IMG/VR virus record: IMGVR_UViG_3300009091_001004
Coordinates: 1-63,815 of that record
Source of the DNA: a virus
Direction: 5' to 3' (one strand)
DNA: 63,815 nt
The number at the start of each line of letters is the position of its first letter. The stretch's first letter is position 1. The notes under the pieces are model-generated. The model ran no database searches. It had not been told where the DNA came from and worked only from the letters and a program-made list of their open reading frames with translations. This document shows positions 15,791 through 42,891 of this stretch, piece after piece. A program made the translations under genes and the position numbers.

Positions 15791-16561
15791 ATGAGTACGC
15801 GAGCGATAGTTACGGTAAAGAGTGCAGATGGAACAGAGACCAGGAGACTGTACTGTCACGGTGATGGTTACCCCTCAGAGGTGGGTAAGCTGGTCTATAA
15901 TTTTGCTAAATTCTCTCCCCGGATTGATGGCAATAGTTCTGGTAGTACTATGCAGAAAGTTGCGTTCGGGGACTGGAGCTCTAAGGACCCTGTAAAGCGG
16001 GAAGGGAAGTATCATAAGCTTCCTCCTTTAGGACAAGCCTACTCCACAATGTATAACGTGACTGTTGATCCGGATAAGTTTGTTCCTGCACTGATCTCGT
16101 TCATGATCAACAAAGGATATGGTGGCGTCTATATCACCGACCGGGACCCGGTAAAGGAAGCAGCGGAGAAGGGCCACGGTGATGAGTATGGCACTGACAT
16201 CGAGTGGCACTATGTCGTTACCTTGGGTAAGGAGTATGGCGCTGCCCCCAAAGTGGACGTTTTCGAGTCAATTGCTTATGGTCCGAAAAAGCTGCTTTAC
16301 AGAGATTCGAATGGCAAGGATGTCATGTATGGCTCCCTGCAGAAGTTCGTCAGTCGCGGCTCTGTTCCCCAGGCGATTGCTCTAGAAGAACGGAAGTACC
16401 GAGCACAGCAAGAGAAAGAGGAAGCAGAAAAGAAGCTGAATGAAGAGAAGAGTCTGCTTACTCCACTCACTCCTATAAAGCGTGGTCGCAGGAAGTCTGC
16501 TCTCACCAGCGTCAAGCCACGGTATGCTAATATCAAGAATCAGGTAGGAGGGATGAGATGA
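15791..16561 (+). CDS. Conserved phage-type unknown protein (STRAIV...DGYP)
   Basis: A 256-residue protein. The start MSTRAIVTVKSADG, then YCHGDGYPSEVG, resembles an uncharacterised family common in phages and plasmids. The C-terminal 50 residues are a charged helix and then a basic tail ending NQVGGMR. ATG 15791 is chosen because the longer frame from 15698 lies over the promoter. The Shine-Dalgarno is weak. The end overlaps the next gene by 4 bases. Confidence 0.7.
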   Translation: MSTRAIVTVKSADGTETRRLYCHGDGYPSEVGKLVYNFAKFSPRIDGNSSGSTMQKVAFGDWSSKDPVKREGKYHKLPPLGQAYSTMYNVTVDPDKFVPALISFMINKGYGGVYITDRDPVKEAAEKGHGDEYGTDIEWHYVVTLGKEYGAAPKVDVFESIAYGPKKLLYRDSNGKDVMYGSLQKFVSRGSVPQAIALEERKYRAQQEKEEAEKKLNEEKSLLTPLTPIKRGRRKSALTSVKPRYANIKNQVGGMR

Positions 16562-17895: not shown

Positions 17896-18444
17896 ATGGT
17901 AGTAAAGAAAGTAGCAAAGAAGACGGTAAAGAAACCGGCTCCTCATACCCAGGTAGAAGTAGCCAGGCTCCCCAAATGTGATTTCTGCGGGGCTCCTGCT
18001 AAATATGATGGTCGCACTGGTCTTGGTCCCTGGGCCAATATGTGTGAGATGTGTTTTCATGAATATGGTACCGGCTTAGGTCTGGGTAAAGGTCAGAAGC
18101 TGGTATTGAAGAAGGCCACTGTGAAGAGGACTGTGAAGAAAGTCGCCGCGAAGCAGGAAGAAGGCTCCGAAAAAGGGGCTGTGGAGAATCCTAATGGACC
18201 TGGGTCATACGATCAGGGATTTGCGCAGGGAGTAGCAGATTACCCGGATTTCAAGCCTCCGAGAGAACTCTCTAATACAGTATATGGACGTGGTTACACT
18301 GATGCTTACGATATGCTCTACTACCCCGAGTTCGAGAAGGAAATAAAAGAGAAGAAAAGAGTCAAAGTGAAGGGAGAGCGGACCAGGAAAGCCGTCCGGC
18401 GTTCTGGTAGCACATCTGGGATAGTAGAGATAAGGAGAAAGTAA
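17896..18444 (+). CDS. Lys-rich zinc-ribbon protein
   Basis: A 182-residue protein. A histone-like Lys/Ala/Val N-terminus (VKKVAKKTVKKPA), a four-Cys zinc ribbon (C28, C31, C50, C53), a second Lys-rich stretch (KKATVKRTVKKVAAK), a domain with GFAQGVADYPDF and YGRGYTDAYDM, and a basic end. Two charged linkers around a ribbon suggest nucleic acid binding or packing. Confidence 0.68.
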   Translation: MVVKKVAKKTVKKPAPHTQVEVARLPKCDFCGAPAKYDGRTGLGPWANMCEMCFHEYGTGLGLGKGQKLVLKKATVKRTVKKVAAKQEEGSEKGAVENPNGPGSYDQGFAQGVADYPDFKPPRELSNTVYGRGYTDAYDMLYYPEFEKEIKEKKRVKVKGERTRKAVRRSGSTSGIVEIRRK

Positions 18445-19281: not shown

Positions 19282-19557
19282 ATGTTAAGAGAACCTGCGG
19301 AAGAAAGAGTATTCACCGAGTTTGATAATGCCTACCGGAGCGATGATAGTGGTGGGTCAAGAGAGCTGGAGAAGCTGTTGTGGCGCTACAGCAACAGTCC
19401 GGAAATACAGAAAGGCGTCGACCAGGCTTTCATCACTGTATGCGGATATTCTCTCAAAACACTGGCGGGGACTAAAAAAGACCCTGATGCAGCCTGGGAT
19501 AAGTTTACTAACGCCTTGCAACAAGAGAGCAAAGGATTACTCTTGTCATGTGCATGA
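19282..19557 (+). CDS. Small helical protein, tail-less paralog of 19822 product
   Basis: A 91-residue protein. Its core (LLWRYSNSPEIQKGVDQAF, then CGYSLKTLA) aligns well with the product at 19822 (VYRGNPELRRGINDAL, CGWSLPTLA), but it lacks the basic tail and FGGLR end of that copy. Just after its stop the +1 frame continues with a Cys/His-containing 26-residue stretch from a GTG at 19550 to 19630, which could be a tiny gene or an old frameshifted end. AGGAGG precedes ATG 19282. Confidence 0.65.
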   Translation: MLREPAEERVFTEFDNAYRSDDSGGSRELEKLLWRYSNSPEIQKGVDQAFITVCGYSLKTLAGTKKDPDAAWDKFTNALQQESKGLLLSCA

Positions 19558-19821: not shown

Positions 19822-20070
19822 ATGAGTAGCTGGAGATATCTTATCTCCGTATACCGGGGCAACCCTGAGCTCAGGAGAGGGATCAACGACGCCCTTATTG
19901 CTTTATGCGGCTGGTCTCTGCCGACACTGGCGGAGAAAGCAGGAACACGAAAGCTCCCCGAGGAACTTCCGCTGCCGAAAGTGTTGTCTCCTGCGACTAA
20001 GGCTGTCCGGAGTGCTGTAAAGAGACACTCCAGTAAGAAGTCCCCTGCCGGATTCGGGGGATTAAGATAA
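19822..20070 (+). CDS. Small protein with basic tail ending GFGGLR
   Basis: An 82-residue protein. The helical core (about 1-45) is paralogous to the product at 19282. A basic linker (SAVKRHSSKKS) and the C-terminus AGFGGLR follow. Because the next gene (20094) has its own AAGGAG closer to its start, the FGGLR codons are not needed as a ribosome site here. See the finding on shared tails. Confidence 0.68.
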   Translation: MSSWRYLISVYRGNPELRRGINDALIALCGWSLPTLAEKAGTRKLPEELPLPKVLSPATKAVRSAVKRHSSKKSPAGFGGLR

Positions 20071-20093
20071 TAACCAGATAAGGAGAGTTAATT

Positions 20094-20447
20094 GTGGCAA
20101 CAGCAAAGAGAACGGTAAACGAGGGTGCTAAGCCAGTAATAGATACTGTTTCCGCACCCAAGGAAAAAGCACCTGGCATCCGGGAGACCATCATGGATAA
20201 CTATCCCGATAACCAGTTTATCTTCCTGGAAGGACCGGGACTGGACAGTGCTATCCTCGGTGTTTGCAACCTCTTCGGCAAGGACCCTGTGATCGCCTAC
20301 GATGAAGAGAAAGTGATCAAGTCCTTTATGAAGCAGGGTATGACCCGCGATGAGGCGCGGGAGTACTACGAATTCAATACTGCCGGTGCCTACATGGGTG
20401 AGTTGACCCCGGTATTTATCAACCTGATGAAGGACATGATGTACTAG
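20094..20447 (+). CDS. Conserved phage/plasmid unknown protein (FxExNxxGAYxGExTP-type)
   Basis: A 117-residue protein. The second half (GMTRDEAREYYEF, NTAGAYMGELTPVFI) matches a widespread uncharacterised family of phages and plasmids that reads EYFEFN.AGAY.GE.TP. GTG 20094 follows AAGGAGAG. An N-terminal disordered stretch rich in Lys/Ala/Pro precedes the domain. Function unknown. Confidence 0.75.
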   Translation: MATAKRTVNEGAKPVIDTVSAPKEKAPGIRETIMDNYPDNQFIFLEGPGLDSAILGVCNLFGKDPVIAYDEEKVIKSFMKQGMTRDEAREYYEFNTAGAYMGELTPVFINLMKDMMY

Positions 20448-20466
20448 TGAAATAAGGAGGTGGACA

Positions 20467-20652
20467 ATGGCACAGTGGAAAACAGCACAGAAGATATTTG
20501 ACGGTAAACCCTACTTCTTCCATAAGCATTTTATTCTCAAGAGAGATGCGCAGAGTGAGGCGGAGAAGCTCCGCAAACGCGGCCGCCTTGCCCGGATAAC
20601 GTATGAGACGGGGAAGTATGCGCGCTATATGGTCTGGGGGAGAGGGAAGTGA
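20467..20652 (+). CDS. Tiny basic protein of the LRxxGxxAR family
   Basis: A 61-residue protein: KIFDGKPYFFHKHF, then KRDAQSEAEKLRKRGRLARI and a beta strand with MVWGRG. The order (beta hairpin, helix with A-x3-A and LR-x-RG, then AR-beta) is shared by several neighbours. AAGGAGG precedes ATG 20467. Confidence 0.68.
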   Translation: MAQWKTAQKIFDGKPYFFHKHFILKRDAQSEAEKLRKRGRLARITYETGKYARYMVWGRGK

Positions 20653-20677
20653 TAGCACGAGGGCACCACAATACCAC

Positions 20678-20705
20678 TTGACATCCGTGGTAGATATGGT
20701 ATAAT
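20678..20705 (+). promoter_or_regulatory. Sigma70 promoter, extended -10
   Basis: TTGACA 20678-20683, 16-bp spacer, TATAAT 20700-20705 with TGg before it. A second TATATT starts 5 bp later. Confidence 0.88.
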
Positions 20706-20734
20706 GTGGTATATTGTGTTAAAGGAGTGTGGCT

Positions 20735-20965
20735 ATGGAAGATAGATATGTAGAGGTTTGGCAGAACGGGAAGATGGCTCACCGTGCCACAATCCGTGAG
20801 GACTGGAGTGGAGAAGATGCTCGTTCTTTAGCTCGCTTTTTCCCTGGTGGCCGGTTCAAGATCGGGGATAAGCTTAGAGCATTACAGGATATCGGTTACC
20901 TCATGGGTCAGGATGATGATGATAAGATTGCCGAGGGTGAGATTGTTACAGTAGGAGGTAGATAG
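20735..20965 (+). CDS. Small protein with VWQNGK motif
   Basis: A 76-residue acidic protein, first gene behind its promoter. VEVWQNGKMAHRA is shared with the product at 19017; the rest (GGRFKIGDKLRALQDIGYL) is not. AAAGGAG lies 7 bases before ATG 20735. Function unknown. Confidence 0.66.
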   Translation: MEDRYVEVWQNGKMAHRATIREDWSGEDARSLARFFPGGRFKIGDKLRALQDIGYLMGQDDDDKIAEGEIVTVGGR

Positions 20966-21385
20966 ATGTATCAAAAATTAATGACTAAGGAGATCCTGGA
21001 CAAAATCCCCCCGCTCTACGGACAGGAGAAAGTCGCGGATCCCATTGTCTATGTGAAGTTCTTCTGCCCCTGGAACCAGTGGACCTGGTACGCGACCGAG
21101 TACCGTCCTTCCGAGAAGCTCTTCTTCGGCTGGGTAAAAGGACACGAAGAGGAGCTGGGGTATTTCTCCCTGGATGAGCTGGAGTCTGTTAACGGTCCAT
21201 TTGGTCTGAAAATAGAGCGCGATATGCATTTCGATCCCAAGCCGCTCTCCTGGGTGAAATCCGGGAAAGAGTACGGGAAGTGGGGGCCGCTGCATGAGGC
21301 CTTGGCGAAGAAGTCAGTCACGAGAAAACCGCGGCGCAGGACCAGCAGCAGGAAGACTGCGTCCGGGATGAAGGGAATAAGCTAG
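20966..21385 (+). CDS. DUF2958-like protein with basic C-terminal tail
   Basis: A 139-residue protein. Residues 1-108 match DUF2958 as I know it: KIPPLYGQEKVADPIVYVKF, WTWYATEY, FFGWVKGHEEELGYFSLDEL, NGPFGLKIERDMHFDP. This family is common on plasmids and phages, function unknown. A basic tail (RKPRRRTSSRKTASGMKGIS), unusual for the family, follows the domain. GTAGGAGG precedes the ATG. Confidence 0.85.
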   Translation: MYQKLMTKEILDKIPPLYGQEKVADPIVYVKFFCPWNQWTWYATEYRPSEKLFFGWVKGHEEELGYFSLDELESVNGPFGLKIERDMHFDPKPLSWVKSGKEYGKWGPLHEALAKKSVTRKPRRRTSSRKTASGMKGIS

Positions 21386-21400
21386 AGGAGGGGTGTAGTA

Positions 21401-21592
21401 ATGGCTATTCAGGGAATATATTATGATCGATATCCTACTAAGGTGACGGCCAAGAGGGCTGCGAAGGGCCTTCGTAGCGGGAGGATAAGAGTACCCCGCC
21501 CTGTCCTTGCTCCTAAGGGATGCTTAGCTCACGTTGAGCCCGCAGGAGATGGTCACGGCAGCTGGGACGTCTTCTTTATGCCAAAGAGATGA
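21401..21592 (+). CDS. Tiny basic protein
   Basis: A 63-residue protein: YYDRYPTKVTAKRAAKGLRS, then HVEPAGDGHGSWDVFF. It may be a distant member of the local family with a helix (AKRAAKGLR) and a C-terminal strand. GAGGAGG precedes ATG 21401. Confidence 0.6.
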   Translation: MAIQGIYYDRYPTKVTAKRAAKGLRSGRIRVPRPVLAPKGCLAHVEPAGDGHGSWDVFFMPKR

Positions 21593-21611
21593 GTGTAGAA
21601 GGAGTGCGATA

Positions 21612-22106
21612 GTGGTTACAGGATACCGCTGCGGTGCAGTAGGAGACTATTCTGGGGGAGATCCTAAAGAGGCCTCTATCGCCTGGAAAGCGCTCCAGTA
21701 TGAGCATGATGAGCAGGGAAACGACGACACGGAATCCGTAGCGAAGTTTCTCGGCATACTGGCTACTCGCTGGTCTGACGTGCTTACGGAGTTCAAGAGA
21801 AGATATCCAAACACGCAGGGTATCTGGCTTTCCCGTAACAAGAAGGAAGCGGAGCAGTACCGTGAGTTCGGCGATCCAGAGCCAGTTAAATATGATAAGA
21901 AAAATGTCATTATTGACCTTGGTGGAGACGGCATTTTCGTGCTCAATGACCGGTCCCTGGAGGATGACGACCTGGGCTATGTTAACGAACAGGGCCAGTG
22001 GGAGTTCTTCCAGCCGAAGGGCAGCACAAGGTATGACCACACTAAAGGAAAATATGCCAAGAGAAGGCTGTACCCGAACCTGACGAGTATCAAAGAACTA
22101 AAGTAG
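21612..22106 (+). CDS. Unknown protein with IWLSRNKKEAEQY motif
   Basis: A 164-residue protein. GTG 21612 follows AAGGAG; the longer frame from 21534 lies over the previous gene. GIWLSRNKKEAEQYREFGDP resembles a motif in uncharacterised phage proteins that follow a GxWLT...A.Y pattern; an ADP-ribosyltransferase-like fold is possible but not shown. The C-terminus is basic. Confidence 0.65.
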   Translation: MVTGYRCGAVGDYSGGDPKEASIAWKALQYEHDEQGNDDTESVAKFLGILATRWSDVLTEFKRRYPNTQGIWLSRNKKEAEQYREFGDPEPVKYDKKNVIIDLGGDGIFVLNDRSLEDDDLGYVNEQGQWEFFQPKGSTRYDHTKGKYAKRRLYPNLTSIKELK

Positions 22107-22113
22107 CGGGGTA

Positions 22114-22143
22114 TTGTGCAGAACAGTAGGTATATGGTAAGAT
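22114..22143 (+). promoter_or_regulatory. Weaker promoter, extended -10
   Basis: TTGTGC 22114-22119, 18-bp spacer, TAAGAT 22138-22143 with TGg before it. A TATAAT at 22158-22163 lies closer to the gene but has no good -35. Confidence 0.5.
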
Positions 22144-22185
22144 GTATGGGTAGATACTATAATCTGGTTTAGGAGGAATGCGATA

Positions 22186-22431
22186 ATGGTCACTCCTCAG
22201 CAAGAGCTGGAAGTACTGGAGAAATTTAAGGCGCTGCAGGACCGCGAAGATGGTTACCTTTCCTCTGGAATGCTGCTGCCTATCGGGTACGCTAACGACT
22301 GTATTGCTATCTGGCAAGATTGTCAGAAGGAGCTTCGCAGCCTGAAATCTCGGGGAACCGTGAAGCCTCGGGTCTCCCGGGTAGCCGTGAAGAAGAAAGC
22401 ATCTATCAGTGGATTCGGAGGGATAAGATAA
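22186..22431 (+). CDS. Small protein with basic tail ending SGFGGIR
   Basis: An 81-residue helical protein (QELEVLEKFKALQDREDGYL, ANDCIAIWQDCQKELRS) with a basic linker (VSRVAVKKKAS) and the end ISGFGGIR. The codons for GGI contain GGAGGG, which also serves as ribosome site of the next gene, whose ATG starts in this stop codon. AGGAGG precedes ATG 22186. Confidence 0.68.
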   Translation: MVTPQQELEVLEKFKALQDREDGYLSSGMLLPIGYANDCIAIWQDCQKELRSLKSRGTVKPRVSRVAVKKKASISGFGGIR

Positions 22432-22865
22432 TGCCTATCAAAGTCGTTTATGAGAAAAATGGTGAGTTCGACCACAACGAGTGGACTGGAACGGTCACCG
22501 ACCTGGTTAACACAGTAGGAAGCAGTGATGCCCGCTTAGGTCCGGTCACAGATAAAATCAGCGGGGCCAAGATCTGGATGAATATCGATAGTGATCCCGA
22601 CCCGGAATACCGCGGCGTGAAAGAACCCTTCTACATCGAGTCTCCTGACGGGGATAACCTGTACGATGCGCGCAACCGCAGGGAGGCAATCATGATGCTG
22701 CGCAATATACGCCAGGGGAAAAGAGCAGACGGAGTGCAGTATTTCACCGATACGGTACTCAAGCCACGGAAGAAAACGCATTCTGGCAAGAAGAGTAATG
22801 CTCATGTTAAATATACCCAGCAGCAGATAATCGGTCTCGGAGACAAGATGGGGAGGAGAATATGA
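22431..22865 (+). CDS. Unknown protein with basic tail
   Basis: A 144-residue protein: an N-terminal mixed domain (about 1-95), a helix with LRNIRQGKRADG, and a Lys-rich tail (PRKKTHSGKKSNAH) leading to a final helix (QQIIGLGDKMGRRI). ATG 22431 is chosen by the GGAGGG ahead of it; the longer frame is a shadow. Function unknown. Confidence 0.65.
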   Translation: MPIKVVYEKNGEFDHNEWTGTVTDLVNTVGSSDARLGPVTDKISGAKIWMNIDSDPDPEYRGVKEPFYIESPDGDNLYDARNRREAIMMLRNIRQGKRADGVQYFTDTVLKPRKKTHSGKKSNAHVKYTQQQIIGLGDKMGRRI

Positions 22866-23029
22866 GTAATTACGGCAGAAAAGGAGAACAGTTCCTGGTA
22901 CCTGTGAAGACTTTCCGAGATAGAAGCAGTGCGCTCAATTATGCTGCCAAGCTACGTCAACAACGGGGAAGAAGAGCTCGTGTTTTCGGAGGAACAGGGT
23001 TATGGGCTGTTTACTCCAACTGGTATTAA
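22862..23029 (+). CDS. Tiny basic protein of the LRxxGxxAR family
   Basis: A 55-residue protein: VPVKTFRDRSSALNYAAKLR, then QQRGRRARVFGG and a strand (GLWAVYS). Same order as the products at 20467, 23086 and 25657. GGGGAGGAG precedes ATG 22862, in the end of the previous gene. Confidence 0.65.
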   Translation: MSNYGRKGEQFLVPVKTFRDRSSALNYAAKLRQQRGRRARVFGGTGLWAVYSNWY

Positions 23030-23085
23030 CCGAAAAGGGGAAATAGACAATTAATATTGGTAATAAGACGAGGAGGAGAATATAA

Positions 23086-23265
23086 ATGACAGCGCAGCTA
23101 ACTAAGCGATTCAACGGCAAGGTGTATGAGTTGTTATCGGGTAGACCTAAAACCAAATCTGCTGCTGAATTCACTGTGGCCTCCTGGCGCAGTCGTGGAA
23201 GAGATAGGGGCGCGAGGATGGTTAAGGTAAAAGGTGGATATGCTGTCTATGTGCGAGGTGGCTAA
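23086..23265 (+). CDS. Tiny basic protein of the LRxxGxxAR family
   Basis: A 59-residue protein: KRFNGKVYELLSGRPKTKSA, then ASWRSRGRDRGARMV and VKGGYAVYVRGG. It fits the local family pattern. GAGGAGGAG precedes ATG 23086. About 55 bp before it hold no gene. Confidence 0.65.
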   Translation: MTAQLTKRFNGKVYELLSGRPKTKSAAEFTVASWRSRGRDRGARMVKVKGGYAVYVRGG

Positions 23266-23378
23266 TGAGCAAGAATAAAAAGCAGTCCTGGATCTGGATG
23301 CGTAAGGGAGATAACGCCGACTACGAGAAGTATGACGGCTCCTTTGATGCTGACTTCTATGTAGGAGGAATACGATGA
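23265..23378 (+). CDS. 37-residue peptide ending VGGIR
   Basis: ATG 23265 overlaps the previous stop. The peptide starts MSKNKKQSWIWMRKGDN, is mixed charge and ends FYVGGIR, where the codons GGA GGA ATA carry the ribosome site of the gene at 23375. It could be a translated coupler rather than a functional protein. Confidence 0.5.
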   Translation: MSKNKKQSWIWMRKGDNADYEKYDGSFDADFYVGGIR

Positions 23379-23815
23379 AAAGTTATAAAGTAGCAGTCAA
23401 AGTCTACGGTGAACCGAACTGGGCCTATAATGCTCAGCGTTTTGCTACCCGGGGAGAAGCAGAGCAGGCAGGAAAGGATCTCTCCGGGCGCTGGACGTCC
23501 CTGGAGAAATTTGAGGTGCAGGAATCACCTGATCCAGTCAATTACAGGATCGCGAATGGGACAATGGAAGAAGTCGCCAGCCCTGCTCCGCCACCTGCTC
23601 CCAGAGTACCGGCGGCTGTTCCTCCTCCTGTAGCAGTTCCTTCTCCCGTATCTGTGGTGTCCGAAGAGGGGGAAGACATGCTTGAGGAGAAACCTGTCTC
23701 TCGGCGCAGGAAAGCACAGAAAGCACCAAAGAAAAAGCGCAAGGAGAGAAGCTTTGTAGACGGGTCCAGTATGTCGGGGATATTTAATAACACCAAGGAT
23801 CTATTTTCAAAATAA
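23375..23815 (+). CDS. Small F-tr-EA motif protein with Pro-rich linker and basic tail
   Basis: A 146-residue protein. The N-terminal domain (YKVAVKVYGEPNW, RFATRGEAEQAGKDL) resembles the product at 8250. A Pro/Ala/Val-rich linker (about 73-105) and a Lys/Arg-rich stretch (RRRKAQKAPKKKRKERS) follow. The C-terminus VDGSSMSGIF shares the DGSxM element with the GP88-like protein (ADGSPMIDF). Start by ATGA overlap, behind TAGGAGG. Confidence 0.68.
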   Translation: MKSYKVAVKVYGEPNWAYNAQRFATRGEAEQAGKDLSGRWTSLEKFEVQESPDPVNYRIANGTMEEVASPAPPPAPRVPAAVPPPVAVPSPVSVVSEEGEDMLEEKPVSRRRKAQKAPKKKRKERSFVDGSSMSGIFNNTKDLFSK

Positions 23816-23824
23816 GGAGGTAGA

Positions 23825-24277
23825 GTGGTGGACAGACCTGTATCAACTAAGCAGATTGGTGATGGTAAACTACCTAACAAATTCTGGGTATCCATATCCG
23901 AGGATTATTACGTTGTGTCCGAGCCCGGGGTGATGGACTGGGCGAGTGACCAGGGTATTATTAAGAACCCCAGGGGCAAAACGCTGGCCGTATTTTCTAG
24001 CTACAAAGCCGCCCGTAATTTTGTGGACAACGAGTTACCAGAACTCGGTAGGGAATATGACGATGGTATCTCTGTTAACACGATCACCATCGAGGACAGA
24101 ATATCCGGGGAGGTGTTCTGGAGAGGTATCGAGTTCGACCCTCAGCATGGTGACCGTTGGGAGAACGAACGAACGGATCTTGATTTTACGAACAAGACTG
24201 TTGCGGCACGAATAGCCAAGGCCAGGAAGCCGAGGCGCAAGAAATCTGCGCCGTCCGGTCTGGGAGGAATAAGATAG
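23825..24277 (+). CDS. Unknown protein with basic tail ending SGLGGIR
   Basis: A 150-residue protein. The first 125 residues are an alpha/beta domain without a recognised family. A basic segment (ARKPRRKKS) and the end APSGLGGIR follow. The next gene lies 70 bp away with its own AAGGAGG, so the GGIR codons do not serve it. GTG 23825 or 23828, both behind AAGGAGG, can be the start. Confidence 0.68.
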   Translation: MVDRPVSTKQIGDGKLPNKFWVSISEDYYVVSEPGVMDWASDQGIIKNPRGKTLAVFSSYKAARNFVDNELPELGREYDDGISVNTITIEDRISGEVFWRGIEFDPQHGDRWENERTDLDFTNKTVAARIAKARKPRRKKSAPSGLGGIR

Positions 24278-24347
24278 GCATATAGGTAGATATGTCTGCC
24301 GTTTTAGTGTATACTAGTATTATTCAAGGACAAGGAGGTAACCAGCA

Positions 24348-24509
24348 ATGGTAACAGGAATACGGTGTCCGGAAGGACACACCAAGGTTTGGAAAAAAGG
24401 TACCGTCCCGACCCGCAAGGGGCCGAAGATACGCTATGTCTGCTACATCTGCGGACGGTCTTTCTATAAGAAAGCCACGTCACGTAAGCCTAAGGCGAAA
24501 AAGGCATAG
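24348..24509 (+). CDS. InsA-like zinc-ribbon protein
   Basis: A 53-residue protein with RCPEGH (C7, H11) and VCYICGRSFY (C32, C35), the spacing of the IS1 InsA/transposase-type zinc ribbon, and a Lys-rich tail. AAGGAGG precedes ATG 24348. The 70 bp before it hold a possible TATACT -10 without a good -35. A similar ribbon stands at 26524. Confidence 0.7.
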   Translation: MVTGIRCPEGHTKVWKKGTVPTRKGPKIRYVCYICGRSFYKKATSRKPKAKKA

Positions 24510-24535
24510 ATCGTGTCGAGTAAAGGGAAAAGATA

Positions 24536-25315
24536 GTGCCAGCACAACCACGACTCAAATTCAGTGTCGGTAATCTCAAGGTAGGTAAGGATACCATTAT
24601 CCTTAATATCACATCTGCTAGGGACTGCGAATCGTTCAAGCGCGGCCTCTGCCAGGTACCCCCGGGGAAGTGCTATGCCATGCGGGCAGAGACGCAGTAC
24701 CCGGACTGCCTGCCTTACCGGCGTAAGCAGACCCAGATCTGGGACCGGTTGACTGCCGAAGAGATTGCCGACCAGATAAAAGAGACCGTGAACCACAAGC
24801 GGAAGATCCCTATCAAGTTTCTGCGCATGCAAGAAGCGGGAGACTTCCGTAATCAGGCGGACGTTACCAAGACCAGTCACCTGGCGGGCCTGTTGCGAGG
24901 AGTAGTTACTGTCTACACTTACACGGCCCGCCGTGACCTGGACTTTTCCCGCATCAGCAGTAATTTGATTGTTAACGGGTCCGGTTTCATGGTGACCAAT
25001 AATTTCCAGGTAGTCAATGAATTCCGTCCCGGCCCGCAGTGCCGTGGCATCAAGGGCGGCGGCTGTTATGGCTGCAAGCTCTGCAAGTCCCGGGGAGGGA
25101 AAGTGATCCAGGAGCTCCTGCGGGGAGGCAAACTCAAGACCAGCGCCAACTCTGATATCGATACTACAGAGCACGGTGGTGTCCCCGAGATTGATCTCGC
25201 GGGAGGCCTTCTCCAGCCGAAGACCAGTGCTAAGCGTACCAGGAAAACTACTGGTAAGAAGACACGACGGTATGCAGATGGCTCTCCTATGATTGACTTT
25301 GGAGGATTGAAATAA
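24536..25315 (+). CDS. GP88-like phage protein with C-terminal IDFGGLK tail
   Basis: A 259-residue protein that resembles the phage family known as gene product 88: SFKRGLCQVPPGKCYAMRAE, FLRMQEAGDF, TYTARRDLDF and a Cys-rich end (CRGIKGGGCYGCKLC). The Cys pattern suggests a metal or iron-sulfur centre. The family function is unknown. A basic tail (KRTRKTTGKKTRRYADG) and the end SPMIDFGGLK are added beyond the family domain. GTG 24536 follows AAAGGGAAAA. Confidence 0.75.
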   Translation: MPAQPRLKFSVGNLKVGKDTIILNITSARDCESFKRGLCQVPPGKCYAMRAETQYPDCLPYRRKQTQIWDRLTAEEIADQIKETVNHKRKIPIKFLRMQEAGDFRNQADVTKTSHLAGLLRGVVTVYTYTARRDLDFSRISSNLIVNGSGFMVTNNFQVVNEFRPGPQCRGIKGGGCYGCKLCKSRGGKVIQELLRGGKLKTSANSDIDTTEHGGVPEIDLAGGLLQPKTSAKRTRKTTGKKTRRYADGSPMIDFGGLK

Positions 25316-25440
25316 TGAAGGGGACTCCTGTTATTTTTAGAAAGTGGCCAAAATCAGAGGGTGGAGACATCCTTGCTTTATTTCCTACCCTGCCCGGGAC
25401 AAATAACCCATATACCTGTTCTGTCGGAGGAATAAGATGA
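25315..25440 (+). CDS. 41-residue peptide ending VGGIR
   Basis: ATG 25315 overlaps the GP88-like stop and has TTTGGAGG ahead. The peptide (starts MKGTPVIFRKWPKS) ends CSVGGIR, encoded by the Shine-Dalgarno of the following gene, with ATGA overlap. Coding is uncertain. Confidence 0.45.
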   Translation: MKGTPVIFRKWPKSEGGDILALFPTLPGTNNPYTCSVGGIR

Positions 25441-25637
25441 ACCAATCAATCAGGGTTACTGGGAAAACCTACTCTGACTTCCTGCGCCATTTAAAGAGCA
25501 AGGAGATGCACCTGCGCAAAGCGGGAGTGAAGTTCACCGTACAGAAAGGCTACGCCTATACCCCGGTACACAACAAGGAGCGTAAGGTCATTCGGAAAAA
25601 GGACTACGAGACCTTTATTTTTATATTGGATGATTAA
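25437..25637 (+). CDS. Small basic protein
   Basis: A 66-residue basic protein: KTYSDFLRHLKSKEMHLRKA then GVKFTVQKGYAY and a final strand. Beta-alpha-beta order, a possible distant member of the neighbouring tiny-protein family. GGAGGAA precedes ATG 25437. Confidence 0.6.
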   Translation: MNQSIRVTGKTYSDFLRHLKSKEMHLRKAGVKFTVQKGYAYTPVHNKERKVIRKKDYETFIFILDD

Positions 25638-25656
25638 CAGGAAAGGAGATGAGGGC

Positions 25657-25848
25657 ATGAGACAGAATATTTTTCACGGCTACTGGGAGTGGGACGGCAA
25701 GCGCTACACGATCTGCGCTATCCGCAACAAATGGTCGGCAGCCGAGAAGGTTACTGATGGATTGCGTAAAAAGGGCTGGCTGGCGCGGGTACTGCAATAC
25801 GCTCCTGGTGTGGATAAGTGGGGAGTCTATAAAAGGAAGGCGGGATAG
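25657..25848 (+). CDS. Tiny basic protein of the LRxxGxxAR family
   Basis: A 63-residue protein: WDGKRYTICAIRNKWSAAEK, then DGLRKKGWLARVLQYA and KWGVYKR. Clear member of the local family. ATG 25657 is chosen by AAAGGAG; the frame from 25630 has none. Confidence 0.68.
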   Translation: MRQNIFHGYWEWDGKRYTICAIRNKWSAAEKVTDGLRKKGWLARVLQYAPGVDKWGVYKRKAG

Positions 25849-25866
25849 CGCGAAAGGAGTCCTTAC

Positions 25867-26061
25867 GTGAGAACATTAAGTGAGACAGCAGAGATCCTCA
25901 GCGGAGTAGTGCGTCAGACAGAGGTGAACCAGCTGAGACGTGTAGTAGGGACACCTCGTGTCGGCGATGTAATATCAGAAATTACACGCCGACACAGTCT
26001 GCGCAACAGCTTGCAGGTCAGCTCTGCCCTGGTGGAGCTGGCTGTTAAGAAAGGACGTTAG
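25867..26061 (+). CDS. Small helical protein containing a large inverted repeat
   Basis: A 64-residue protein (LSETAEILSGVVRQTEVNQL, then LRNSLQVSSALVELAVKKG). GTG 25867 follows AAAGGAG. The middle of the gene (25958-25995) is a near-perfect inverted repeat, encoding RVGDVISEITRRH; the DNA structure may matter more than the protein here. Not recognised. Confidence 0.55.
   Translation: MRTLSETAEILSGVVRQTEVNQLRRVVGTPRVGDVISEITRRHSLRNSLQVSSALVELAVKKGR
25958..25995. repeat. 15-bp inverted repeat with 7-nt loop
   Basis: Left arm GTGTCGGCGATGTAAT (25958-25973), loop ATCAGAA, right arm ATTACACGCCGACAC (25981-25995). Arms match over 15 bp with one bulged A. No T run follows, so it is not a standard terminator; it may be a protein-binding, recombination or mRNA-folding site. 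Confidence 0.85.
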
Positions 26062-26066
26062 GACAT

Positions 26067-26324
26067 ATGAGTGCAATAATAACCAGCACCCTGCCAACAG
26101 TTATTGGTATGGGGATTGTTGCTGAAACGACAAAGGTAGCGCTTGGCAAGGGAAGGAGGAAATCTAAAATGACCTGTAAAACACGCAGACGAAAAGCGAC
26201 AGGGCGGGTTAAAGCTCCGATCAACCATGTTCGCACCCGCAAGGTTAAGGTACCGATTAAGAGAGTCCGGGTTCCAGTACGCAGAGTACGGACTCCGCTG
26301 GACAAAATAAGGACTCTTATTTAA
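26067..26324 (+). CDS. Highly basic protein with possible dual start
   Basis: An 85-residue protein. Residues 1-25 are hydrophobic (ITSTLPTVIGMGIV) and may be a membrane segment. The remainder is Arg/Lys/Val-rich with repeats such as KVPIKRVRVPVRRVRTP. A strong ribosome site, GGAAGGAGG, sits before an in-frame internal ATG at 26169, which would give a 51-residue purely basic form. Basic repeats suggest nucleic acid compaction. Confidence 0.65.
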   Translation: MSAIITSTLPTVIGMGIVAETTKVALGKGRRKSKMTCKTRRRKATGRVKAPINHVRTRKVKVPIKRVRVPVRRVRTPLDKIRTLI

Positions 26325-26388
26325 TTCCTGGTTTTGGTCCCCAATCCTATAGGCCGGGAATCATTACCCCGGCCAGTCACTACCGTAT

Positions 26389-26436
26389 GCAGGGGAGGTC
26401 TCCTTTCGACAGGTAAGATCTTCCCTGCCTCCCTTT
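26389..26436 (+). terminator. Possible terminator
   Basis: GCAGGG at 26389 can pair with CCCTGC at 26423, followed by CTCCCTTTT. A further hairpin, GGCCGGG with CCCGGCC (26352-26374), lies just upstream. Together they separate the small-gene block from the next promoter. Confidence 0.5.
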
Positions 26437-26700: not shown

Positions 26701-29700
26701 GTGGCAGTTATACCTGCTCCGGGAACACAGGGAGAAAGCTACATTATAGTACCTGATGCGCCGGCGACTAGTCCGGCTCCTCCTGACGTGTCCCTGTCTA
26801 CAGCATACCAGCCCTCTAATCCGTATCCCGGGAGCCCGTTGCCTGGTATCGGTGATACTCCAGGGTACCCCGCTGATATGTCGGAAGGTTATGTTCCTCC
26901 TCCGATACCCGGCGCACCTGCCCCGACCTCCTTAACAGAGACAGTAAAACCTATTGTTACCCCGTCTGGGATGACAGAACTGATTGATTCTGGTGGTAGT
27001 GAACCTGTTCCCATCCCTCTCCCTGCGCCTCTCTTGCCATCGGTTCCAGTAGAGGAGCCCGTGGCTGTAGACCCATTTGCGGATATAAAGCAGAGATACG
27101 AGGATGCTGGTCTCATTATGCCTCCTACTGGTCCGAGCCCTGTAGTTTCAGAGCCCGCTTCTGCTACTTCACCCGTAGTAATCGGGACAATGCCATCTAC
27201 TGGTGAAGTGCTTGTCAAGGATACTGATGGTAATATGTACTGGAAACCCGGTACAGCAGAACAGATAACCGCTTTTGATCTCCTGATGACCCAGTATCCA
27301 GAAGGTAATTTCACGTCCCCGGTCTATATTCCTCCTACCGGGATAGATACCGCGCAACCGGCAGCCGGGTCCCTGGCGGGAGAAGACCCACTCCGGGCAT
27401 TAGACAACAAGTGGGGCATCCTGATCGTTGAGGATAGTGACGGACAGCTCACTTTCGTGGGAACAGAGGAACAATGGAACCAATATCAGCAGGACGTACA
27501 GGCAGCAGAACTCAGCACCGTATTGGTCTACAACTACCGTGGTAACGTGATAGAAATGCCTTTCAGAGAATTACAGGGCATGAGTGATCTCGTTGGAGAA
27601 GAGCAGTACGCGAAGGCTGTAGAACTGGGAATACTTCCGGAGGGAAAATTTATTCCCGGAGAAACTCCAGACAAGTGGTCCTATGTTCCGCAGTGGCAAG
27701 TTGAAGCACAGAACAATTTTGAAGCGACTCATACAAGAGTCGGGGATAATCAGTGGCTCCCCAATGAAGCACTCGAGGAGATACGGAATAGCTCTCCCGA
27801 GGCCTACAATATCGTTACCACAGAAGGTCTGGCGGCATACCAGTCCTGGTTTGACCAGAACTATTACAAGTTAGCTACCGGGGAGTATGTCAAGCAGGAT
27901 TACTATAATAATGTCCTTAATGCAGATGATAGAGAGAAACTCAATCTGATGGGTATCGACCGTTTCTCCCAGCTCCTAGCCCTCCGCGAGCAGCAATACA
28001 GGACGATGAGCGCCTCCCGGGAAGCGATAAATACTCAGGAAGGTGTTAACGCGGAGATTAATGAGTACGAAGGGATGCAGCGGGCAATAACATTGGGAAG
28101 GGGTATGTATTTCACGGAAGAGCAGCAGAATGTTATTGATGAGCTTGCTGCGTCCGGGTACGGCGTTCCTGTTATTGGTCCTCTTCCGAAAGAGGGACAG
28201 AAGGGTGTCGTCATTTCCTCCGATGGGGGACAGTACTCCGGGTTCAACATTCTGGATGCCTACCAGAGTGGATTTGATGTTGCCAAACTAACAGCCCTGT
28301 TTGGAGCAGAAATTGTCGACCGAGCGATAGCGCAGGATTCTGCTCTCTCCAATCTATCTTCTGTGAACTATCACGAAGTTGTTGACGGCAAGGATCTCTA
28401 CAATATTAACGCTTACTTGTTCGATAACAGGCGGAACCTGGACAGCGCAATAGCTACGCTGAAAACAGCAGGCTTCACGGAGGATGCGATCCGGTCTAGC
28501 ACTTCTTCTGTGGAGCAGTATAATTCCGATGTCAATCAGGTCATAATGCGCATCGATACTGGTCTTGGTTACAATGAAGCAGACTCGTTGAGTGCTACCC
28601 AGCGCTCTATTTTGGATGGCGCAGTGAGAAAAGCAGGATTTGAGTTAACATCTGCAAGTGGGACTGTGTGGTGGAAAACAGCAACCGAGGAAGAGAAGCA
28701 GAAGGTTGCCGAAATAGTGAATGATACATCCTACCAGGGGTTTATGGGACGGGAAAGCCTGCTCAAGAATCTCTGGGATGCCATCCGCCTGGGCAGCGTC
28801 GACATGTACTATGATCTCAAGAACCGTCTTGTCACTATGGTCAGCACCGAGTTCCGCGAGGTCAAAGAAGGAGACCTGCTTCCTCAGTATCGGCGTGATG
28901 CGGAGGCGTTGATGGCTGCGCAGGGCGCAGGGATACGCACAACTTATACTGCGGAAGAGGCTGCCCACGATAATGAGCTTAGTAAACCGATCCTAGAAAA
29001 GTATGACCAGATATATAAGAACACACTCCAGGCGAAAGAAAACTACCTGATAGCGAATCCAGATATTGCTCCAGTCTACGGTGCCGGTTTCCTGGATAGC
29101 GTGAAATCTAACCCGGGAGTGCTCGCGGATCCCACTCTCTGGGCTGAGACCATAGGACAGACTCTACCCTACACACTAGCCACAATAGGAAGCATGGTTG
29201 TCAGCCAACTGGTTACAGGAACACCGATATACGGTACACCGTTCGCTTTCGGTCTGACCTGGGGAGTAGAGGGTCAGGGTATTTATGATGATGCTATCAA
29301 GAACGGAGCCACCAGAGCCCAGGCTGAGTCTCTGGCTGAGCTCTTCGGCACCTTGTCCGCTGTAGTGGAAACTGCAGGAGACGCTGTCTTTGTGGGCGCT
29401 CTGGGAGGTATGACCAGCAAGATTACCAGCTCCCTGGGCAGGAATGTAGCCGATGGTGCTATCCGAACAGCGGCACTGCAAACTGGCTGGAGTAAACTTA
29501 CAGATAGCGCTGTCTTTGAGCTGATGAACCAGGGTGGCCAGGAGTGGCTCGAGCAGGTAATCCACAACGCAGCCATAAAGACAGTGAATGAGAACCGGGA
29601 AATGTTGGAGAATGCTGCTAGCGCTTTCGTCGGTGGAGTTGTCGGATCTCTTCCCTTTACCTTTATCCCGGTGGCAGTTGGGGGGCTACGGACAGCAGTC

Positions 29701-32700
29701 AACGTAGTGGATAAAGGTGTAAAGTCAAAGATGAGTGTCGAAATAGTAGCGGGAGTTACTCCGGCAGAACAGCTTAATGTGCTTAATCAGGCTCTCAAGT
29801 ACTACGCCGATCCCGCACAGGTTCTTGCCTACCGGCATACTCCGATTGGCCCAGACCTTATGCTGGCCCATGAATTGCTCGGAGCAGCTCTTAATGAGTA
29901 TACACACACTTCTCTCGAGTTAAAGCAGGTAGAGAAGGCTATCAGTGATTTCGGTATGGCAACTTCCGGAAACATTATCGTGACTGATTCTACCGGGAGT
30001 TACTCCCTCTCTGCTTATTTGAAGAATAATCCTGACCTGGCTAATTTCTATGAGGAGCAACTTGCTCGTAATGCGGAGCAGCCTGATGAGGCTTACAATA
30101 CTCTCGTTAACAGGCTGCAGGAAGAGAGAAAGGCTACTGTTACCACGACTGGGCAGCTGGGTGAACTGGACCAGCTTACCGCCCGAGAGAAAGGACTCCA
30201 GGGTAAACTGGAACAGCTGAAAGATCCCCTTATAGAAGCCTCGAAGCACGTCTCCGAGCTACTGGCAACAGCGGCTCGATCAGATACCAGTACCGCGGAA
30301 GTGAGGAAGAGTATCGAGGATCAGGCAAAGGACATTGTTCGTACTGCCGACTCTCTGACTACCCAGTTGGTAGGAGGGAGAGATGCTCTCGAGATCTACA
30401 AGGATATTCAGAGCCTTAACACCCAGATTGGTGCTATGGAAGACCAGATCGGTAAGGAGAAAATAGCAGCAGATCCGACGTCTCTGAGCCGGGTAGAAGG
30501 ATACCGGAAGTTGATTGCCAGGCTTAACCTGGACCTTGTTACTCTTAATGCGGAGCTTAGACAGCGTTATATTGACACCGGTGAGCTGGTAATCGTCAAT
30601 GGGAAAAACCTTTCCCTGGAAATTAAGTCGCACCAGTCTCGTCTGATCGCAGCAACCGATGCATTGGAGGGGTTCCGGAAATCCGGCAAGGGAACGGATA
30701 CCGTCAGCCGGGTGGGTAATGAACAAACGCGAGCCCTTGGAGCAGTAGTGGCCAGCGAGGCAGACAAACTGAACACGGTAAGTAATCTTATCCGCATGGC
30801 TGCTGATGTGAAGACCGCTGCGGAAACTGCACTCGCCTCTGCGCGCAACCTCCCCGATAACGTGGAAGCAGCAGTCACGAGAGGACTAGAGAGAGTTGAT
30901 CAGGCCGCTCAGGCTCTGGAGAACGCGATCGAGGAAGCGCCCGGTATCACTAGCCGTAAGGTAATTCAGGCCGCTGCAGCTCTGCGTCATGCTGTCTGGG
31001 ATTTAATCAGACTGCTGCGGAGGCTACCTCTTATTGTAAGTTCTCAGGCGATCGCTGCCGGCTATGCTATCGGAAGATACGCTTATGCCATAGAATTATT
31101 CGCGGAGGGAAGTACACAGCGGGCTGTTGCGGAAGTGGAAACGCTTCTGGGGCAGCTGGATGACGCCCTGAATGCCGCTCCCGGAAAAGTGAGCAAGGAA
31201 GCTCTCGCGTTTCTGACAGATATAAGACAGGCGGCCTATCGTGCCGAACGGGCTGTGCTGTCTCCGTATGATGCTGTCGTTAATGATTTGATCCCGGCAG
31301 TGAATAAACTGCTGGATGATATGGAAACTGCACCGAATGCTGTTTCCCGGAAGATGCTGGAGATGATAGCGGATACGCGGGAGACAATCACACGCGACAT
31401 TCGCAATGCCGGACTTGATGCCTGGTTTGGAGTCACCAATGAGGCCATAAGCCTTTACCAGGTAACAAGAGGAGGCATCCTGAGTTCTATCTCCAGTGTA
31501 CAATACACAGTATCCCAGAGATTGGGACTGGATCTTCCCCTGGCAACCATAAGAGCATACAACAACCTGAATCGCAGTCTCTCTCACCTATCTCGGATCA
31601 TTGAGACATCCCCCAATCTTGCGGGACGTGAGGTGCTCAATGCGTTGCAGTCTGCCCGGAGGAATACTCGTAATACCGCGGTAGATATCAAGGACGCAGT
31701 TGACCGGATTGCCCTGGATATCCACGATGCTGTTAGAAAAGCCCGGGGTGCCATAACCTCAGCTTCGACGCGTGTTAGTGTGGAAGCAATCGCAGCCTAC
31801 AATAACCTCAATAGAGCACTGGATCGCCTCGAGCAGGCCATTGGTTCCGGGGCAAGTATGGCCAGTCTCCAGGTACTGAATGCAATGGCGGATGTACGTG
31901 CTGCTGTAGATCAACTAAATAAGGTGGTTAGCAGTATACCTCTCAAGACACTACGAATGTATACGCATGCTGAAACGAGCATCAGCTCCTCGGTGGACAA
32001 TCTGGAGAACCAGATCAGCAGACTCGTTGATATGGCAGAGTCGGAAGAACTGACCTGGGGCCCGTTCTTTGCGGCTGTATCCTCGGCGCGGCAGGCAGCT
32101 ACCGGACTGGCTACAAGGCTGGGGGACTCTGTTCGCGGTATGCCATCGCGTCTCCGGGGAGACATTTTATATGCACAGGAAACAAACCTGGCTTTCCGTA
32201 CTCTTACTGACATGCAGAAAGAAATCACCCGGATAGACGAGATTGTCTCCCGGGAAACCGTGAGCAAAGCGACACTGCGTAAGGCACTGGAGAATACTGT
32301 TAAGCTGGATAGGAACGCACGCCTTGTTCCTGGGCTGTACGACCAGGTATCGGAATTCTTGACTGCCCTGAGAGCCCAGCTTCAGGGAAAGATTGACAGC
32401 TTTCCTATCGATGAAGCTAAGCTGGAGCGCAAGCGGCAGGGATTTATGCGGGACATGGTGGAAGATCTGCGCGAGAATTCCCGCAGGGTCAAGGATTTCG
32501 ACATAGAGAAGAGCGAACTAGACTTAGGGAACATATTTGATAAACTGAGTCGCAATATCGACTACCTATCGTCTCTGATACTGGGCAATAAGAATGTGGA
32601 AGCAGAATTCAAGAACAATCTGAAGGACCTCGGGCTAAGTGACAGGACAGTGGATAATGTAGCAAATGCTGTGAAAGAGGTCTCCAAGGCAGTCGAGGCG

Positions 32701-34869
32701 AGGAATGCTGAAGCAGTAAAACATGCTGCGGAGAATCTGGAGAATACCATAGGCTCTACCCTGGAGATGGATCCGATGGTGAGAAAGCTCATGCAGGACG
32801 GTGGACGCTATATTCAGACAACTGCTGATGAGCTGATTAACTCGCTCCGGATGTACGACCTGCTCGACATGATGAAAGATAATGATACCTGGGGAGAGGA
32901 AAGAGCCACCCTGGAAGAGATGCGTAGTGTGCTGCAGGACATGAAGAAGGGAGAGGAGTCGCGTAGTGGAATCGGTGAGACTAGCGCTCTCGGAGCGAAA
33001 GAATCTCCCCTGAGAAACATCGACCAGGAATCCAATGCGCGTGCCCGCGAGATGCTCAACTTCTTCACTGAATCTACCTACAAAACCCCTGCACAAGAGT
33101 CAGCGCAGCTGGGGTGGCGAGAAGCTAGAGAGCTCAGTGAGCGGAGTCTACGCGTAGAACGCCTATTACAGCGTGTCGAGCGCGCTATACGAGATAACTT
33201 CTACAAGGATCTCTATCACGGCGGGGATACAGCTAAACAGGCCTGGGCGGAAATGCTGAAATACCTAGAAGAGGTGTATGGCAAAAAGGAACTGGAAGCG
33301 TATCTCGAGACCGGGGAAGGAATCACAGGAGAATACGCCGGCGGTGAGGGCCTCGTGAGTGCCGAAAGCGCCGAGTTTGCCCAGAATCTTGATAGCGCGC
33401 TGGCTGAAGTAGAACGAATTTTGAATGACAATAAAGATACTCCTCCGGATGCTCCTGCTCCTGAGGACCTTCCTTTCGAGACTCCTCCGGAAAGAGGTGG
33501 CAGTGGTGGTGGTACAACTACAGCAGAGCGTACGATGACTGCCACCAAGACAGCTACTGAGGTAGAGACCGATGTAGAACGTGCTGCCCGGGAAGCAATG
33601 GAGGAGTATCAACGCTCTCTCGAGGAAGAAAAAGCAGCAGCAGCAGAGGAAAAGGCGGCACAGGAGAAAGAGATACAGCAGGAAGAAAAGCGAAAACAGC
33701 TGGAGGCTGAGAGACAAGCCGCGGAAATAATAGAAGCGATAAGAAAGAAAAATCTTGGGCAGACGGAGAAGGAAAAGAGTAAGCTGAAGAAACCTGTCCG
33801 TGAGTTGCCTCGAGAAAAACCGGAAGAAATCTCCTGGTTCGCTGGCACAAAGCCCGCTCCTTCTCATGTGCCCATGAGAAAGAAAAAGACGCTGGATGCC
33901 TATTCTCCTTACACGATCCCCGAGCCCGCTCCAGAGGATGCCGCTCCGTCACATCCTGTAATCAAGCCTGGGATACGGCCGGTGACTCCTCCGGAATTTC
34001 AACCGATGACTCAACCTGTTGTCCCTCCAGAGCCTATGCCTCTCCCGAAACCGATTCCGGGCACAACGCCAGTGCCGGAACCCAGGCATACTCCTGAGCC
34101 TGAACCAACTCCCGAGCCGGAGATCCAGCCCGTACCGGAGCCGGAACCGAGACCAGAACCGAGACCAGAACCGTATCAGGAGCCGTATCCTGTCCCAGAA
34201 CCAGAGCCATACCCTGAACCTGAACCGGTTCCTGAGCCGGAGCCAGAGCCTGTCCCGCAACCGGAGCCCAATATGCCTCCTTACCCTCCTCCGGTAAATC
34301 CCCCACCATCTCCTCCGGTGAACCCCCCGGCAGAGATCCTGGTACCCCCTCCTCCGTTCCTTCCCCCTCTCATGGGTGGCGGAGAGGGGAGAAGACCTGT
34401 TGTTCCTCCAGGATCATTAGTGTGGGCAATGGGTAGATTGAAGAGGGGTAGGCGAGGCAGATCCACGCAGTGGTGGTATATTCCTGCTCCCTGGGACCAG
34501 GATGATGCTATACCTTTACAGGATCCTCCTGTGGGGGCGAGAGCAATCGACCGGGCTGTCCCTCGCGAAACTTTGCAGATTATTGGAGAGCCCCAGAGTC
34601 CTGTTCCCCACCTGGTGCGGAAAGACCTGGGATTTATTGATATTGAGATTATTGGTGGCAGGACTATCACATTTAAGTCCGGTGGCCTGAAGACCGATGT
34701 TGGGACACGCGACCCGAGTCCGACCCGTGGTATAACAATAGAGGGAGATGGAGCGATCCTGGATAACCTTCCCAGACACGTAGCCAAGAAGCGGGCGGTG
34801 GGCAAGAGGAAGAAAAAGAAGATAAGTGAATGGGACTATATAACGACACTAAAGGGATATAAGTTTTAG
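26701..34869 (+). CDS. Giant helical protein with Pro-rich ends (2722 residues)
   Basis: The largest product. Residues 1-170 are Pro/Ser/Thr-rich and disordered. About 200-830 are mixed helical. Hydrophobic stretches at about 830-915 and 985-1005 ([18 protein letters not shown]) could insert in a membrane; nearby [15 protein letters not shown] resembles large virion proteins of phages. Residues about 1395-1740 hold five copies of a helical repeat (for example [30 protein letters not shown]). Further coiled coils run to about 2330, then a Pro-Glu-rich low-complexity segment (about 2415-2560) and a small basic C-terminal domain. GTG 26701 follows AAGGAG. Candidates are a virion-internal, tape-measure or adhesion scaffold protein; no enzyme motif was seen. 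Confidence 0.72.
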
Positions 34870-34896: not shown

Positions 34897-35355
34897 ATGG
34901 CATATGAACAGGAACCAGCAGAGGACATCATAACAGACGAAAGTGCGGAGGCATACGAGCCAGGAGAGCAAGCCTACATCCCACCCAGGGCACCCGTCTT
35001 CCCCGCAATATCTCCAATAGCGACCCATCAGGCAGGAGCGGTTGCTGGAGGAATGTTATCGGGAATCAGTAACAGGATGGGCCTATCTCCTACCCGGGAA
35101 GCTAACGGGGATGACCTCAGCGATCTCTTCGAGGGAGTCGATGACGAAGATCTTGATGTCAATATCGATGATCTTGTTGATGTCGATGAGGAAGACATCT
35201 TCGGAGAAGGCGGAGAAGACATGTCTGACCTGATAGACGTCTCTTTCGAAGATATTATGGGAGAGCCCCCGAAGCCGCGGATGCAGAGAGTATCTCGCCG
35301 CAACCAGCTGCTGCACCAGTACTCTCCGGGCGGCATGACCGGCGTAGAGATGTAA
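34897..35355 (+). CDS. Acidic protein
   Basis: A 152-residue very acidic protein (DLDVNIDDLVDVDEEDIFGE) with a short basic C-terminus. It might be a DNA mimic, chaperone or scaffold. GAGGAGG precedes the ATG. No family recognised. Confidence 0.66.
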   Translation: MAYEQEPAEDIITDESAEAYEPGEQAYIPPRAPVFPAISPIATHQAGAVAGGMLSGISNRMGLSPTREANGDDLSDLFEGVDDEDLDVNIDDLVDVDEEDIFGEGGEDMSDLIDVSFEDIMGEPPKPRMQRVSRRNQLLHQYSPGGMTGVEM

Positions 35356-42555: not shown

Positions 42556-42891
42556 TTGAGCATACTCAGAGAATTCTCCAGGAGAGTTAAAAAGTACCAC
42601 GCAGAATCCAATAAGCGAGCTAAAAGGAGGCTTGCTCGAGCTCGGACGCAGAGTGCCCGCGAGAGAGAACAGTCCCAGATAGAGAAAAATAGGCTGGCTG
42701 ACAGGATAGCTATCGCGGAAGCCAGGACAGCATTAGCTAAAGCGGAGTCAGCACGAAAGAGAGCTGAGCTGGAGGTAAAATCAATAGGCAGAGGAACAGG
42801 AACCAATCTATTTAGCAGCCTGAGTGACCTGTTCACCCCTTCTGCTCCGAAGAGAAGAGTACATCGTAGTAAAAAGCGGATAGCAGCTTAG
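42556..42891 (+). CDS. Basic coiled-coil protein
   Basis: A 111-residue protein. A very basic helical stretch (RRVKKYHAESNKRAKRRLA) leads to a coiled coil with RADRIAIAEA-like heptads, and a basic end (RRVHRSKKRIAA). TTG 42556 is the start, behind GGGGAGG. It could bind DNA or be an internal virion protein. The 104 bp between it and the next promoter hold only small inverted repeats, no gene. Confidence 0.65.
   Translation: MSILREFSRRVKKYHAESNKRAKRRLARARTQSAREREQSQIEKNRLADRIAIAEARTALAKAESARKRAELEVKSIGRGTGTNLFSSLSDLFTPSAPKRRVHRSKKRIAA

Follow-up and report, generated by a model that had tools for sequence, protein, structure and literature searches.

A recurring basic tail at the C-terminus of unrelated proteins in a virus group, a candidate docking peptide

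Family 1 encapsulins recognize their cargo by cargo-loading peptides with the consensus SDGSLGIGSLKRS (PMC8346489), which are short, lie at the extreme C-terminus of unrelated carriers, and show a hydrophobic and glycine pattern followed by basic residues. Internal proteins of bacteriophage T4 (IPIII) and DarB of phage P1 carry capsid targeting sequences, short terminal signals sufficient to take accessory proteins into the head for delivery to the next host (PMC9024508), while bacterial microcompartments recruit core proteins to the shell by encapsulation peptides, short helical tags on a disordered linker (PMC12339742). Described here is a tail with features of these systems in IMG/VR virus record IMGVR_UViG_3300009091_001004 (63.8 kb; positions 1 to 63,815, all 63,815 nucleotides, referred to as the window) and its relatives. 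Judged from sequence, this tail is probably a C-terminal docking peptide (roughly 65%).

Six window proteins with differing folded parts, named here by their start coordinates (Table 1), carry a Lys/Arg/Ser/Pro linker and a 7-residue C-terminal end close to [ST][GS]-Φ-[GRK]-G-Φ-[RK], Φ being hydrophobic: QVGGMR (15791), AGFGGLR (19822), SGMKGIS (20966), SGFGGIR (22186), SGLGGIR (23825), and DFGGLK (24536). A previous sequence-only reading had described four of these ends as nearly alike behind basic linkers, with 15791 and 20966 as looser versions, and all six are present as it listed them. The linkers are rich in K, R, S, and P, with KKSPKRKP-like stretches, and over the 25 positions ahead of the final seven the window proteins have a net charge of +0.28 to +0.36 per residue; across the 15 proteins measured, linkers range from +0.24 to +0.40, with protein bodies near 0. 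The same reading took 19282 for a tail-less paralog of 19822, which a pairwise test bears out (46% over 37 residues, E 2e-10), the tail being on 19822 only.

It had also proposed that the tail behaves as an added module, and this is well supported by sequence comparison. The 20966 product scores 60.6 bits against the DUF2958 profile (PF11171; curated cut-off 21), and it continues for ~35 basic residues, whereas a Halotia plasmid DUF2958 protein of 99 residues stops at the domain end. The 24536 product scores 25.8 bits against the GP88 profile (PF17338; curated cut-off 24.4), and its relative gp279 of HGTV-1 (41% across the matching part) has its cysteine region at the end and no tail. For the RIYDNGG protein, too, the relative in CcrBL9 has no such tail. 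An added module is therefore the favored description, since these outside homologs lack the tail and relatives of the virus bear it on other proteins.

Relatives were found by a search with the DNA polymerase, part of a uracil-DNA-glycosylase/DNA polymerase A fusion at window positions 8471-11200, which returned records G001, G002, G003, and G004 (58-66% identical) and the remote G005; G007 was added via a conserved membrane protein, and G005 was set aside as an unrelated phage without tails. In the parts they share, G001 nearly duplicates G002, and G003 nearly duplicates G004, so the set amounts to four lineages: the window, G002, G003, and G007. Gene sets were called by a simple reading-frame caller, so all tail and gene counts are approximate. 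In G002, a 1344-residue giant protein ends in KKRSRTRKADQTALGGMRR, a 229-residue protein in RKRSTTSGIGAWFGGIRR, and a 128-residue protein in AKRSRNSPSGIQRMR. Three consecutive genes of G003 end in SPTSLRGIRR, LTSVRGIR, and TPTSMRGIRR, its 430-residue protein in ETQVRGVRR, and its giant in PTVVRSVRL, while a 166-residue protein of G007 ends in KKSSPRLSVRGLR. Most of these proteins are non-homologous to the tailed window proteins; the exceptions are the giants and a 119-residue protein of G003, whose window homolog 22431 keeps the linker and has a different end.

The recurrence was evaluated with leave-one-genome-out profiles, each trained on the other three lineages with the tails of the target lineage excluded. 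Window C-termini ranked 1-3 of 19,740 positions, those of G002 ranked 1, 2, and 4 of 16,854, one from G003 ranked 3rd of 21,250, and the G007 tail ranked 2nd of 15,128. A loose pattern combined with a basic linker, written after all lineages had been viewed, was seen in 15 of 363 genes, whereas shuffling of the last 30 residues gave 0.65 on average (maximum 5, 2000 shuffles) and 378 genes from unrelated phages gave 0. A simpler pattern, xG[ILMV][RK]R? with a basic linker, was derived from the window except for the optional last R; the three relatives contain it 7 times, while shuffles averaged 0.31 and 0 of 5000 got to that number. Tails are also more alike within than between genomes (BLOSUM62 mean 15.0 vs 11.4, permutation p 0.004), which fits one partner per virus. 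It can be said with high confidence that the module is real and that four lineages carry it, mostly on proteins that are not homologous.

A tail-type end, of varying form, is also present in all four lineages on a giant protein and on the acidic protein adjoining it, whose genes border the cluster of membrane proteins and ATPase. The homologs of the window giant end in TTLRGFN.., TALGGMRR, and TVVRSVRL, and those of the acidic protein in AGMGGMQG, TSMGGTR, and SGIAGVQ. Within the acidic protein (34897-35355), the motifs DDLSDLFEG and DIMGE are conserved in four lineages, and similar DLF stretches are present at 42556-42891 (SLSDLF) and 23375-23815 (TKDLF).

As a docking peptide, the tail would consist of a basic arm of ~20-30 residues, probably disordered, and a short hydrophobic/glycine hook. 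Grafted onto many proteins, it would allow all of them to bind a common partner, presumably virus-encoded, and gather at one place. That place would most likely be the assembling virion, an unusual and apparently tailless particle in which small accessory proteins may be packed beside the giant and acidic proteins, with the basic arm possibly also holding viral DNA and the packaged proteins being delivered to the next cell. Sequence and gene order make packaging of the tailed proteins into the virion about an even bet. The packaging idea had been raised in the sequence-only reading, and it stands as the best available, though putative, explanation, with the likeness to encapsulin cargo kept as an analogy only.

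Several points weigh against a docking peptide. The likeness of tails within genomes may partly reflect duplication, as three tailed genes of G003 are in tandem, and homologs may lose or alter the end, as between window 22431 and the 119-residue protein of G003. The ends of the giant and acidic proteins are loose, several being only in the top 0.3-2% of 7-mers, and the structural role of these two proteins is putative, based on gene position. In addition, 8 of 12 strict tails overlap the core of a ribosome site, which places their final codons under a second constraint. Gene ends in these genomes commonly contain such sites: across the four lineages, 119 of 366 genes have a Shine-Dalgarno core within the last 18 nucleotides. 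The tail could thus be an artefact in which GGIR or IRR is simply what GGAGGAATA and ATAAGGAGA spell at the end of the upstream gene, the peptide itself being unselected. Two tiny window frames, ending at 23378 and 25440, do end in GGIR solely through a ribosome site, without a basic linker. This Shine-Dalgarno alternative, also considered in the sequence-only reading, thus accounts for part of the pattern, but it leaves the linker and the preceding SGF or TSM residues unexplained, and where a gene ends in a ribosome site but has no tail, any of the three frames may be used at the end and a basic linker is mostly missing. Four strict tails have no core (window 19822, G002 33405, G003 56523, and G007 16954), against 0.23 expected among genes lacking one in the tail (0 of 5000 shuffles), and the end of G002 33405 is encoded by GGC GGT ATC AGG CGG with no ribosome site. 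Window 23825, previously placed outside the ribosome-site account, does contain a GGAGG core, but this cannot serve the next gene because the next start codon is 70 nucleotides downstream. The sequence-only reading had named loss of the GGIR end whenever the downstream start moves as a ground for rejecting the tail; instead, homologs of the giant and acidic proteins retain the motif whether or not it contains a ribosome site, and the window and G007 giants retain TTLKGY and TTLRGF away from one. As a full explanation the ribosome site is already contradicted, and an unselected peptide is quite improbable; the two constraints coexist, and the ribosome site does not replace the peptide.

The basic arms could alternatively bind or condense DNA in the manner of linker-histone C-terminal tails, with the last residues incidental and the proteins reaching the virion or replication site via DNA, as the K/R/S/P-rich linkers and their KKSPKRKP-like stretches would suggest. 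However, the 7-residue end itself is conserved at the very C-terminus in four lineages, and the acidic proteins end similarly although their basic stretch is much weaker, which makes this explanation unlikely, if somewhat less so than the artefact. The tail might also direct proteins to a location inside the host or to a compartment of viral replication (a membrane, the chromosome, or a host protein) rather than to the particle. Most tailed genes do lie in the accessory region between replication and structural genes, and early host-takeover proteins are common in accessory regions of other phages. A destination of this sort is nonetheless the least probable of these alternatives, as ends of the same type are found on the giant and acidic proteins, next to the structural cluster. 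Virion assembly is preferred as the destination of a docking peptide mainly because tail-type ends occur on proteins adjoining the membrane-protein cluster.

Compared with the described systems, the tail resembles Family 1 encapsulin peptides in its shortness, extreme C-terminal position, hydrophobic/glycine pattern followed by basic residues, and unrelated carriers, and the end of window 24536, DGSPMIDFGGLK, is visibly similar to the encapsulin consensus when compared by eye. Unlike encapsulin cargo, the linkers here are strongly basic, the spacing is Φ-x-G-Φ-R rather than Φ-G-x-Φ-K/R, and tags are also found on probable structural proteins. The T4 and P1 signals are also short terminal sequences, but they are N-terminal and belong to tailed phages, whereas the tail is C-terminal and on many proteins. 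Microcompartment peptides likewise sit on a linker, but they are helical, and no microcompartment shell family was among the strongest matches listed for these genomes. On the tests made, the tail is not a member of the encapsulin or the T4/P1 targeting system. The encapsulin shell (HK97 fold, PF04454) gave no match at E<=1 in the window (G000), G002, G003, and G007, and the HK97 capsid, terminase, and portal families (PF05065, PF03237, PF04860) gave none over cut-off in the four genomes, with controls detected in both cases; such families could be overlooked if the records are incomplete or the homologs remote. A weak HK97 match in G002 (14.3 bits, under cut-off) lies inside a 2428-residue reading frame.

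A possible capsid protein of the group, judging from its predicted structure and by analogy, is a hyperconserved hydrophobic protein of 61 residues with two helices (MSVRGLVTVVIGVVAFVVIDSLITNIITGTDTGSVILQNLLRVIVAAAILIGVVMSIGRKG), encoded in the window at 43070-43108 and 43406-43555. The window, G002, and G003 versions are identical over 43-44 residues with differing codons, and G007 has one change. The predicted structure is a helical hairpin, a layout reported for the capsid proteins of spindle-shaped viruses (PMC10848311); fold searches with it returned no significant matches. It can be suggested, tentatively, that a group lacking recognizable tailed-phage genes and built around this two-helix membrane protein brings diverse accessory proteins into the virion by means of a single exchangeable hook at their C-termini. 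This would be a cargo code of the encapsulin type with an independent origin in a virus. Mimicry by the tail of the protein's N-terminus, MSVRGLV, was rejected as not significant (top 0.18% of 7-mers, picked afterwards among ~55 positions), and this N-terminus is invariant, whereas tails vary between lineages. The gene is split in the window by a group I intron at 43098-43396 (RF00028, E 2e-9 searching this stretch, below gathering score) with an HNH remnant, while that of G003 is uninterrupted; G002 has a weaker group I intron match, and G002 and G007 have HNH-encoding inserts three codons away.

Besides the cluster of membrane proteins, ATPase, and very long proteins, the window has genes for sugar modification at the right end. 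The last searches, made with the two-helix protein and an alignment of polymerases, added no lineage to the group, and neither the tailed 23825 nor the ATPase recovered any relative when used alone as a query. Alignments of the ATPase and polymerase had no match among genome contigs and so gave no pointer to a host, and the AlphaFold model of the ATPase was too poor for use (predicted local distance difference test, pLDDT, 41). The DNA polymerase frame of G007 (22606-26427, L035-L036) has 1273 residues, of which ~300 are extra and internal, probably an intein. A small-protein family with the pattern A..LR..G..ARV....Y.VY is repeated at 20467-20652, 22862-23029, 23086-23265, and 25630-25848, and a G003 relative of the first was found by BLAST. 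A second possible terminal motif is RKDSWGEFK, which ends the product of 53644-54546 behind a basic stretch and recurs in the 2428-residue protein of G002 (RKPSWDEFK), with a loose likeness in G003 37290-37709 (RRGEFGF).

Table 1. Window genes bearing the tail, variants of it, or serving as comparisons.
Coordinates	Strand	Feature	Basis or remark
15791..16561	+	256-residue protein, tail ...KRGRRKSALTSVKPRYANIKNQVGGMR	PHROG matches weak only
17896..18444	+	182-residue protein, looser tail variant ...TRKAVRRSGSTSGIVEIRRK; final codons also a ribosome site	top 0.14% of 7-mers
19282..19557	+	paralog of 19822 without tail	pairwise comparison
19822..20070	+	82-residue protein, tail ...KRHSSKKSPAGFGGLR; tail without ribosome site, next gene has its own	
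20966..21385	+	DUF2958 domain and ~35-residue basic extension, end SGMKGIS	profile match
22186..22431	+	81-residue protein, tail ...KKKASISGFGGIR; ribosome site of next gene lies within tail codons	
22431..22865	+	50% homolog of tailed 119-residue G003 protein; basic linker retained, end diverged (IIGLGDKMGRRI, ribosome site)	
23265..23378	+	tiny frame, end FYVGGIR, no basic linker; ribosome site only (negative control)	
23375..23815	+	146-residue protein, basic linker, variant end RSFVDGSSMSGIFNNTKDLFSK; DGSxM common with 24536	top 0.05% of 7-mers
23825..24277	+	150-residue protein, tail ...KPRRKKSAPSGLGGIR; next start 70 nucleotides off	
24536..25315	+	GP88-like protein (Pfam PF17338), tail ...KKTRRYADGSPMIDFGGLK	profile match; HGTV-1 homolog without tail
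25315..25440	+	tiny frame, end SVGGIR, no basic linker; ribosome site only (negative control)	
26701..34869	+	2722-residue giant; conserved C-terminal domain, then basic linker and tail-type end	
34897..35355	+	acidic protein adjoining giant, end SPGGMTGVEM	

No earlier description of a C-terminal packaging tag in viruses came up in a literature search, and to our knowledge no C-terminal cargo code is known in a virus group without a detectable HK97 capsid. If the tail is a packaging label, this group would have such a code, its tailed genes would provide a ready list of proteins carried into the next cell, and the same tail could bring other proteins into particles. Even without packaging, these genomes offer a clear case of one DNA stretch that is both a peptide motif and a ribosome site.

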